Origin: Desulfobulbaceae bacterium
Lineage (GTDB): Bacteria > Desulfobacterota > Desulfobulbia > Desulfobulbales > Desulfocapsaceae
Reading direction: 5' to 3'
Length of the DNA stretch: 64,000 bases
Assembly (NCBI GenBank): GCA_026988015.1
Contig: JALSMA010000078.1
Location: 1-64,000, forward strand
Notes under the pieces: model-generated
The model's database searches: none
Seen by the model: the letters and a program-made list of their open reading frames with translations, nothing else
Told to the model about the DNA's origin: nothing
Part shown: piece after piece, positions 16,561 through 19,000 of the stretch
Layout of the letters: every line of letters starts with the position of its first letter
Position numbering within the stretch: position 1 is the stretch's first letter
Position numbers and translations under genes: made by a program

Positions 16561-17052
16561 CTACCAAGGGGGGGAGGAGGTCTTGCGACCAGAGGGCTTT
16601 ATTTTTCGGGCATGACCGGCAAGAAACGAATCAAGTTTGTTTGCAAATGCCTGACGATCACCCCTGTTCAGGGCTGGCGGGCCACCTGTTTCAACACCAT
16701 TTGCACGAAGATCATCCATAAAATTGCGCATACTCAAGCGGGAACCGATAGAATCAGTGGTATAGAGTTCACCTCGTGGATTGAGAGCATGCCCTCCTTT
16801 TTTGATCACGTCAGCAGCCAGCGGGATATCAGCAGTAACTACCAGGTCGCCGGGATCAAGCTGCTTCACGATTTCAGAATCTGCCACATCCGCCCCAGCA
16901 GACACCAGGATAAAAGAGATATGGGAAGAAACAGGTATTTTTATACTTTTATTTGCCACCAGGACTGTCTCTATCCCGGTACGATCAGCCGCCTTAAAGA
17001 GAATCTCTTTGATCACCACCGGACAGGCATCTGCATCCACCCAGACCTTCAT
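16561..17052 (-). CDS. UPF0178 (YaiI/YqxD) family protein
   Basis: 163 residues, typical for the family. The start [18 protein letters not shown], the block [28 protein letters not shown] and the [18 protein letters not shown] tail are hallmarks. The fold is NYN/PIN-like and carries conserved Asp residues (DADACP), suggesting a metal-dependent nuclease-like or RNA-related activity, unproven. The start overlaps the preceding ferredoxin stop (ATGA), so translation is coupled. Confidence 0.9.
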
Positions 17053-17513
17053 CTTAAGAACTCAGGTGACGATTTTTTTTCTACTGCTTCAGCCAATACC
17101 TCGGAGACAGGTGCTACCTCCATGGCCCGAACAGGACATATGGGAACACAGAGTGAACATCCGGTACACTTGTCAGGATCAAAGATTACTTCCATTGCAG
17201 GCCGCTGAATAGAAAGTGCCCCGACAGGGCAGATACCAGTACAGGCGCCACACTGAAAACATTTCTCATCATCACGGTTTATGGCTGCAGCAAGCCGTTC
17301 TGCGTTAACACCAAATGACTTCAAATAAGAAAGTCCAGAGGATACCCTGTCCTTTGTCCCCTTCAGTTCGAGGATCATGACTCCCTCACGCTGGGGAAGA
17401 ATATCCGCCTTTAAAATATTAAATTCCACATCGTACTGTTTCACCAGCTGATAAATGATGGGTTCACTACTGGTCTCTTTGGGAAACCTTAATATATAAA
17501 TTCGTGTTGCCAT
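17049..17513 (-). CDS. NIL-domain 4Fe-4S ferredoxin-type protein
   Basis: 154 residues. The N-terminal ~75 residues form an NIL-type domain ([20 protein letters not shown] and the [13 protein letters not shown] strands), a small sensor or ligand-binding fold. A 2x[4Fe-4S] ferredoxin domain follows: [16 protein letters not shown] and [16 protein letters not shown]. Such fusions occur in anaerobes, often beside methionine or sulfur metabolism genes; the partner is unknown. The start at 17513 follows AAAGGTG; an upstream Met at 17579 lacks one. The stop overlaps the UPF0178 start. Confidence 0.85.
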
Positions 17514-17630
17514 GATGCACCTTTCGCAATTTAGCTTAATTTTTCCTGGTAATATGTTCGCTGTCTGACCACCGTACAACCATACCAGATTTATGCATTA
17601 AATAAAACAGGGATACACCACAACAGAAGC

Positions 17631-17659
17631 AGGGCCGGATCGTTAACAGACCCGGCCCT
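17631..17659. repeat. GC-rich inverted repeat without T tract
   Basis: AGGGCCGG (17631-17638) and CCGGCCCT (17652-17659) with a 13-base loop form an 8-base-pair stem. No run of T follows on either strand, so a rho-independent terminator is not supported. It lies between two divergent genes, 17514-17920, where nothing else but the Pho-box-like site is seen. Confidence 0.4.
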
Positions 17660-17796
17660 GGGAAGAAGAGAACACACTCCCGACAGCAACGCCGTCAGAA
17701 GACACCTTCAAATTACAACGATGATATTAGGATCCCGTTTCAAAGTGATTAGAAATCTATCATTTTTGAATACCTGAACACAGCAGCCTAATCCTC

Positions 17797-17825
17797 CTGT
17801 AATTCTTTTGTAATCAATTTGTAAC
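17797..17825 (+). promoter_or_regulatory. Predicted Pho-box (three 7-base direct repeats)
   Basis: CTGTAAT, TTGTAAT and TTGTAAC occur with exactly 4 bases between them, giving an 11-base period, which is the spacing of PhoB-type binding sites (consensus close to CTGTCAT). Candidate -10 hexamers GATAAA (17834-17839) and GATAAT (17847-17852) follow. The gene downstream is an exported metallophosphoesterase starting at 17921, fitting phosphate-starvation control. Confidence 0.6.
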
Positions 17826-17920
17826 ATGGGTGCGATAAACAGCAAAGATAATCGCTGTAACTGAGACGGCAGACAGTTTTGAACCTGCCAACAATAAATC
17901 ACCCTTGCGGAGAAACAGGT

Positions 17921-19000
17921 ATGAAGAATGTAACGAGGCGGCAATTCATTAAAAAAGGAACTCTATCACTCCTGGGCGCTGCAGTGGCTCTGAACAGCAG
18001 TAGCAAAGTCTTTGCTACCCCTTCAGCGATTCCTTTCAAGAACCTGCGATTTGCAGTCATATCAGACCCGCATGTGGACATCCGCGGAATCAATAAAATG
18101 AAGATGAGCGCACTCAGTGTGGAATGTCTGAAAAACAGTGTTGCCGATATTAACCGAGAACAAGGGCTGGCTTTTGTCATGGTGAACGGGGATCTACTTC
18201 TGGACGGAGAAATGGAAAACGCAGAGGTAGTTCGTAACATTCTCGGGGAGCTCACGGTTCCCACCTTTGTCATAAGTGGCAACCATGATTATGAACCGGC
18301 AAACCTGAAAAAACGCAGGGATGGTTTCACTTATCTTACTGCAGAAGGATTCAGGGAATATTTTTCGGAATATGGCTATCAAAACAGTGATCGACCCTAT
18401 TACGCTAAGCAGATCACACCTGGGATGCGCTTGATCACCCTGGATGCCTGCATGCCCCTTGAAAAGAAGAAATGGGGTGGCAGACTTGCTGAAGAACAGA
18501 TAAACTGGCTCGACAATCAGCTTGCAAGCCACAGAGATCAGGTAAACCTCATTTTCATGCACCATAATTTTATCCCGTGGAGCGTTGATGAATTACGCGG
18601 TGGTCCCAAGCAGTGGTTCTGTATTGATAATGCTGCAGAGGTCCGCGCCATTCTCGAAAAAAACAGCCAGGCCACACCCATTGCCTTCTCAGGACATCGC
18701 CACATAGGTTTACGCGCCAGGACGCTCAATGATGTGGAATACTTTGCCCTCCCTTCTCTAAATTCGCACCCCATGCGCTACTCCATATTCACAGTGTCCA
18801 ATGAGGAGATATCCTGGAAAACCCCCATGGTTACCATTGATGAGGCAACCCACGTCCAGGCTAGAGAAGCTCTGTTAAATGCAAAATGGTGGCGAGCCGA
18901 ACAATACCAGACACGATCATCTTTGAACGACATGGAGGTACTCAGCTTTTATGAGAACAACGACTACATTGTTGGAAACCTGCAACTGCTGCAGGGATAA
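17921..19000 (+). CDS. Tat-exported metallophosphoesterase
   Basis: A 359-residue calcineurin-like phosphoesterase. A twin-arginine signal TRRQFIKKGTLSLLGAAVA leads it out of the cytoplasm. The five metal-site blocks are present in order: SDPHVD, VNGDLLLDGE, SGNHDY, FMHHNF and SGHRHIG. The substrate, a phosphomonoester or phosphodiester, is not readable. ATG at 17921 follows GGAG with good spacing; an upstream in-frame Met would give 14 extra residues ahead of the Tat motif. A Pho-box-like site sits about 95 bases upstream, supporting regulation by phosphate. Confidence 0.88.
   Translation: MKNVTRRQFIKKGTLSLLGAAVALNSSSKVFATPSAIPFKNLRFAVISDPHVDIRGINKMKMSALSVECLKNSVADINREQGLAFVMVNGDLLLDGEMENAEVVRNILGELTVPTFVISGNHDYEPANLKKRRDGFTYLTAEGFREYFSEYGYQNSDRPYYAKQITPGMRLITLDACMPLEKKKWGGRLAEEQINWLDNQLASHRDQVNLIFMHHNFIPWSVDELRGGPKQWFCIDNAAEVRAILEKNSQATPIAFSGHRHIGLRARTLNDVEYFALPSLNSHPMRYSIFTVSNEEISWKTPMVTIDEATHVQAREALLNAKWWRAEQYQTRSSLNDMEVLSFYENNDYIVGNLQLLQG

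Follow-up and report, generated by a model that had tools for sequence, protein, structure and literature searches.

PhoX and PhoD are Tat-exported phosphatases of Pho regulons, and PlcP is a cytoplasmic metallophosphoesterase with no known export signal. To our knowledge, phosphate scavenging has been little studied in the bacteria considered here, relatives of Desulfocapsa and of Desulfuromusa that reduce sulfate or disproportionate sulfur. The PhoB box of the E. coli type has two or more 11-bp direct repeats with the heptad CTGTCAT; its head-to-tail layout of heptad and 4-bp spacer is described in two reports (PMC4415409, PMC3978041). For Desulfovibrio vulgaris, likewise a bacterium of the sulfate cycle, the accessible part of a DAP-chip study gives the box as a repeated (c/t)GT(n)AC, a 6-bp repeat with a 4-bp spacer, and the targets named there include no gene like the one described here (PMC3333781). 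Other reports state that the gene for the lipid-remodelling phospholipase PlcP, with putative Pho boxes, adjoins genes for making lipids that lack phosphorus (PMC4796936), that Desulfovibrio alaskensis replaces lipids under phosphate limitation (PMC5193443), and that Pseudomonas secretes glycerophosphodiesterases of another family, GlpQ (PMC5438359).

The locus lies in a stretch of 64,000 nucleotides (the window) of a Desulfobulbaceae contig (JALSMA010000078.1), where a predicted exported phosphoesterase gene stands behind four tandem repeats (Table 1). As in the E. coli box, a heptad and a 4-bp spacer are repeated head-to-tail; unlike CTGTCAT, the heptad is nnnTAAY, at its best CTGTAAT or TTGTAAC. 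The unit TGTAAC also fits the D. vulgaris box. The promoter type is already known (PMC4415409, PMC3978041, PMC3333781). Among the literature matches listed (the best 10 of 31, 12 of 17, 8 of 8 and 8 of 110; titles and abstract starts) there was no such gene or operon, nor an assignment of the family to the Pho regulon. The protein would share Tat export and Pho control with PhoX and PhoD but belongs to another family. By description it resembles PlcP, as a metallophosphoesterase with a putative Pho box and lipid-gene neighbours in relatives, and differs from it in having an export signal.

Table 1. Features of the phosphoesterase locus and its divergent neighbour (window coordinates)
Feature	Position	Strand	Remarks
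Divergent neighbour, NIL domain and 4Fe-4S binding domains	17049..17513	-	Pfam
Predicted leftward transcript start and two hairpins (17701-17677, 17660-17630)	17618..17703	-	MFE -39.8 kcal/mol, z -5.8
Divergent Pho-type array: AAATGAT, TTCTAAT, TTGAAAC, TCCTAAT	17726..17765	-	2 mismatches
Pho box array, four heptads, 11-bp period	17786..17825	+	0 mismatches to TAAY x4
Probable -10 hexamer TAAACA, 10 bp past array	17836..17841	+	same distance as TAAATA at pstS
GATAAT, the -10 of the earlier note	17847..17852	+	probably not PhoB's; starts 21 bp past last heptad
Predicted exported metallophosphoesterase, 359 aa	17921..19000	+	PF00149, 39.4 bits
Signal peptide of the twin-arginine type, residues 1-32, with TRRQFIKK	17921..18016	+	R6, R7, F9 invariant

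The earlier note on this DNA had described a triple Pho-box. Its 11-base TGTAAT/C repeats are real and form a Pho box, but the heptads number four: GCCTAAT (17786-17792) stands one period upstream of CTGTAAT (17797-17803), TTGTAAT (17808-17814) and TTGTAAC (17819-17825). The three-unit core, TGTAAT-n5-TGTAAT-n5-TGTAAC, spans 17798-17825. In a scan of the whole genome (3.15 Mb in 91 contigs, 99.8% complete), the three-unit TGTAAY pattern has one exact match, the window array itself; the next best place, the array's own neighbouring registers aside, has three mismatches. With up to three mismatches allowed there were 18 places, overlapping registers included, against 10 for the pattern read backward.

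The genome's own phosphate genes provide the closest comparison. One contig carries phoR-phoB followed by phoU-pstC-pstA-pstS-pstB. PstC, PstA and PstB exceed the NCBIfam cut-offs and PhoU that of Pfam; PstS has a PBP_like_2 domain above the Pfam cut-off (173 bits) and is encoded between pstA and pstB. For the adjacent regulator and kinase, PhoB is the best NCBIfam family of the one (226 bits, under the cut-off of 296) and PhoR the third-best of the other (288 bits, under the cut-off of 334). Upstream of pstS stands CTGTAAC-GAAG-CTCTAAT-GGAA-GCCTAAT-CAAA-TCGTAAC, an exact match to four TAAY units at 11-bp period, and a four-unit array with one mismatch precedes phoU-pstCA. The earlier note had called for comparison with the pst and phoU promoters and would have yielded to an absence of similar repeats before pst or pho genes; such repeats are found at both promoters and beside phoB. 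The array adjoining phoB (C61:10405-10452) has one mismatch and points away from that gene.

Counted over the genome, the four-unit pattern has two exact places, the window array and the pstS promoter. One-mismatch places number six, overlapping, and four of these fall in the pst/phoB region; two-mismatch places number 19. Read backward, the pattern has no exact match, a single one-mismatch place (the window array again) and 30 with two, such that at up to two mismatches the totals are 27 real against 31 backward. The strong class of arrays is thus specific, whereas arrays with two mismatches show no excess in number. When the eight units of the pstS and phoU arrays alone were made into a weight matrix and both strands of the window were scanned with it, position 17786 ranked first with 28.7 bits.

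An alternative is that AT-rich heptads have come to lie in a row by chance and that PhoB does not bind them. The support for the array is computational, and the weaker sites are as frequent as in the control; both would be compatible with chance. On simulated sequence of matching dinucleotide composition, however, the matrix reached at most 20.2 bits, and none of 20 million positions attained the score of the window array. The same layout also stands upstream of pstS and of the orthologs described below. We regard chance as a very improbable explanation.

The layout of the promoter was judged by the distance of the -10 from the last heptad at E. coli PhoB promoters, where the -10 lies about one turn past that heptad and no -35 is present. 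The earlier note had taken GATAAT as the -10. This hexamer is present, but the likely -10 is TAAACA, 10 bp past the last heptad. At that distance the five other close orthologs carry TATTGA (G088), TATATG (G143), TACAAG (G177), TCTAAT (G156) and AAGAAT (Desulfuromusa kysingii); four of the six hexamers, own included, start with TA, as does that of pstS. At the position equivalent to GATAAT they have CAGGAT, GCATGA, GCTACG, CTTAAC and AAAAGG, in the same order, and pstS has ACGTTG. GATAAT was set aside as the -10 used by PhoB because the orthologs and pstS carry a hexamer 10 bp past the array and nothing resembling a -10 at 21 bp. A sigma-70 consensus scan of the region found no promoter and no -35/-10 pair.

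The gene starts with an ATG at 17921, preceded by GGAG. PF00149 is the only Pfam family above its cut-off (21.5 bits), and the five motifs of calcineurin-like phosphoesterases (D-x-H, GD, GNHD, H, GHxH) are invariant in nine of nine aligned sequences, own included, which bears out the earlier note's statement that all metal-site motifs are present. The invariant residues are D49, H51, D91, N121-H122-D123, H214-H215, H259 and H261. The nearest solved sequence in a single-protein search is GpdQ, the glycerophosphodiesterase of Enterobacter aerogenes (3e-10; PDB 2zo9, 3d03), and a profile search of solved structures returned Lmo2642, GpdQ and Rv0805. In the alignment D49/H51, N121, H214 and H259/H261 lie opposite D8/H10, N80, H156 and H195/H197 of GpdQ, and G90-D91 aligns with the GD of D50; these GpdQ residues we take to be its metal ligands. 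Though the metal-site motifs align, identity to GpdQ is about 23%, and the GpdQ chain (274 residues) aligns from its residue 3 and has no export signal. A structure predicted from four sequences had a mean pLDDT of 56.5, too poor for a reading of the substrate; its best Foldseek match, GpdQ, agrees with the sequence search but at this low confidence adds little to it.

At the N-terminus, MKNVTRRQFIKK...VFA forms a signal of the twin-arginine type. It contains the S/T-R-R-x-F-L/I-K motif, with R6, R7 and F9 invariant in six of six aligned sequences. The Tat signal claimed by the earlier note stands as a motif, TRRQFIKK with its invariant RR, but the curated TAT_signal_seq model of NCBIfam (TIGR01409) scores 13.7 bits, under its cut-off of 16.7. 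Export through Tat would suit a two-metal enzyme that is loaded with metal beforehand. On sequence grounds we describe the protein as a GpdQ-like metallophosphoesterase with a twin-arginine signal. The tie to phosphate starvation that the earlier note drew is supported, while its term phosphatase is too specific, because the nearest solved relatives include phosphodiesterases (GpdQ, Rv0805).

The gene is sporadic. A search at E 1e-20 detected it in eight of the order's 193 genomes, and one at E 1e-30 in eight of 395 across the phylum; both counts include the genome studied here. A plasmid search with E up to 1e-5 gave 284 records, all below 60% identity and one with at least 80% query coverage, and no close relative among them. 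Five other close orthologs are 64-71% identical. Within 300 bp upstream, all six genes, own included, have an array, four strong and two weak: the best has no mismatch in the window and G088, one in G143 and G177, and three in G156 and D. kysingii. Shuffled sequences matched this quality 0, 0, 1, 1, 15 and 16 times in 2000, respectively. Further off, a homolog in G172 that is only 34% identical has an array with one mismatch and the hexamer TACAAA. The homologs of G178 and G184 (49% and 40% identical) have no upstream array, nor do seven further homologs of the phylum (best 4-6 mismatches).

No gene adjacent to the window copy has a known phosphate role; its own boxes excepted, this copy does not lie near phosphate or lipid genes. 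Four of the five other close orthologs adjoin phosphate or lipid genes; the contig of the G156 ortholog is 3.4 kb long, and the survey of neighbours covers the other four. In G088 a divergent phnCDE has an array of its own, with phnJ further on. G143 has a divergent pstS with an array, and the next gene downstream encodes the ornithine lipid synthase OlsF (848 bits in NCBIfam against a cut-off of 620); further on come genes for PPK2 and for binding proteins of the phosphonate type, the latter with ABC genes. In G177 a divergent array precedes genes for an MGDG synthase (PF06925), a VTT-domain protein and a glycosyltransferase. The D. kysingii gene lies on the same strand downstream of a trio encoding an 811-aa protein, a PSD-like and an LGT-like protein, with a frame of 114 residues between.

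We infer a PhoB-activated promoter that drives an exported phosphodiester-splitting enzyme, the phosphate then being taken up by Pst. The grounds for this are the array and its resemblance to the genome's own pst boxes, the arrays of the orthologs, the phosphate and lipid genes that lie near these in relatives, and, in the protein, the metal-site and RR motifs. We give this reading a probability of about 0.87. When phosphate is scarce, PhoR would phosphorylate PhoB, which would bind the four repeats head-to-tail and recruit RNA polymerase to the -10 in place of a -35, with transcription predicted to start at about 17848. The two-metal phosphoesterase would probably fold and take up its metals in the cytoplasm before leaving it via Tat. 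In the periplasm it would split phosphodiesters, which may be glycerophosphodiesters, discarded phospholipid head groups or similar, and the phosphate freed would be available for uptake by Pst. The enzyme is thus assigned to the known starvation response, not to a new kind of system, and probably frees phosphate from organic molecules.

Two other roles for the enzyme have to be weighed. It could serve mainly in lipid remodelling, as an exported enzyme of the phospholipase C kind that strips head groups from the cell's own phospholipids for replacement by lipids free of phosphorus, such as glycolipids or ornithine lipids. OlsF in G143, the MGDG synthase in G177 and the PSD/LGT-like operon upstream in D. 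kysingii, separated by one small frame, would agree with such a role, as would the reported setting of PlcP, with its putative Pho boxes, beside genes for lipids that lack phosphorus. Yet no lipid gene is adjacent in the window or in G088, the export signal sets the protein apart from the cytoplasmic PlcP, and the solved proteins nearest to it in sequence are GpdQ, Lmo2642 and Rv0805. We consider lipid remodelling as the main role unlikely.

Rv0805 and Lmo2642, on the other hand, would also suit an exported cyclic-nucleotide phosphodiesterase, acting on 2',3'-cNMP or cAMP and scavenging nucleic acids under phosphate starvation. The best NCBIfam matches of the protein point the same way, SpdA with 50 bits and the CpdA-type 3',5'-cAMP phosphodiesterase with 45.8 bits, but both fall far below the curated equivalog cut-offs (400 and 225 bits), and we hold this specificity to be about as doubtful as the lipid role. 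Our preferred reading, an exported phosphodiester-splitting enzyme under PhoB, places a sporadic and unnamed phosphoesterase family in the predicted Pho regulon of the Desulfocapsa and Desulfuromusa relatives introduced above and links it to phosphonate use and phosphorus-free lipids.

The analysis also yields a Pho-box rule that can be used in this genome: four units of nnnTAAY at 11 bp, with a -10 ten bp later. Merging the registers leaves 19 separate places with no more than two mismatches. Genes on the correct strand behind them are the window phosphoesterase, pstS, phoU-pstCA and, behind two-mismatch arrays, phnC, a phosphonate-operon protein (TIGR03223, 248.8 bits, cut-off 248.95), PhoX (PF05787, 78 bits), a type I phosphodiesterase on contig C84 and a protein with a PstS-type domain on C71, besides an operon on C77. 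Two further places are divergent partners, one on the minus strand beside the window array and one beside phnC (C55:61842), and another is the array adjoining phoB. The seven remaining places (C1, C11, C41, C62, C68, C69, C75) are intragenic, precede genes without a clear link, or have no near gene behind them. TA stands at the -10 position in some register at eight of the 19 real places, some of which offered two or more registers, against none of 21 control places. The control comprised 21 of the 31 backward places; those left out overlap real arrays, are second registers, or lie on C69 and C75 and are matched by the real pattern too. A same-strand frame follows closely at eight of the 21; judged by eye and not by profile, none of these is a classical phosphate-starvation gene, and one resembles HAD-type phosphatases. 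Because places with up to two mismatches are no commoner than in the control, the PhoX, phn, C71, C77 and C84 sites are assigned by position only. A search of the genome for PhoA (PF00245) at E 0.001 came back empty, and the five other metallophosphoesterase loci have no array with fewer than four mismatches on either strand.

Several of these loci merit description. The C-P lyase operon (C55:53200-63000), with weak arrays, encodes PhnC and PhnD by NCBIfam cut-off, PhnG, H, I and J by Pfam, and phnE, K, L and M by reading and general domains; the organism probably uses phosphonates. On C84 (2044-5339 of L093) a two-mismatch array precedes the gene for the type I phosphodiesterase/nucleotide pyrophosphatase (PF01663). 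Genes for an ABC importer come next, and its binding protein carries, by reading, a twin-arginine signal; this is possibly an operon for uptake of organophosphates or phosphonates. On C71 (31753-34300) a two-mismatch array with TAAATA after 10 bp lies 137 bp before the gene for a 796-residue protein. It is an unusual fusion of DUF4388, PstS-type PBP and OmpA domains, perhaps a surface phosphate sensor or binder.

To the left of the phosphoesterase array, the minus-strand array is followed after 10 bp by TAATTT (17710-17715) and is the window's second-best place for the pst-only matrix (19.2 bits, in a register one unit further left). The hairpin region beyond it folds better than all of 200 shuffles, and the same place has the lowest z of 149 plus-strand segments sampled along the window (-3.6, with 25 shuffles each). 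No Rfam family matches the hairpin region, its sequence has no repeat elsewhere in the DNA compared, and its two terminator-like matches are as many as in shuffles. The next leftward gene encodes the NIL/ferredoxin protein. The region is a candidate small RNA, structured leader or mere inverted repeat. That the locus is a two-way Pho switch, with the exported phosphoesterase on the right and, on the left, the minus-strand array driving a structured starvation small RNA that starts at about 17703 and is some 75-85 nt long, seems to us rather improbable.

The nnnTAAY rule also points to an operon with a conserved protein family, about 810 residues long and without a name in Pfam. In this genome (C77:78634-83288), an 813-residue protein is encoded with PSD-like and LGT-like proteins behind a two-mismatch Pho-type array, which TAATAA follows at a distance of 10 bp. 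The 813-residue protein matches no family in Pfam or NCBIfam, and its best PDB match has E 0.74. Its family occurs in 44 of 395 genomes of the phylum. At 12 loci, own included, the best upstream array has no mismatch in one, two in four, three in two and four to seven in five, as raw counts. Relatives of this locus are L075:2775-7258 and L122-L133. Speculatively, the C77 operon might make a phosphorus-free aminolipid, the LGT-like protein transferring diacylglycerol to an amino acid that is then decarboxylated.
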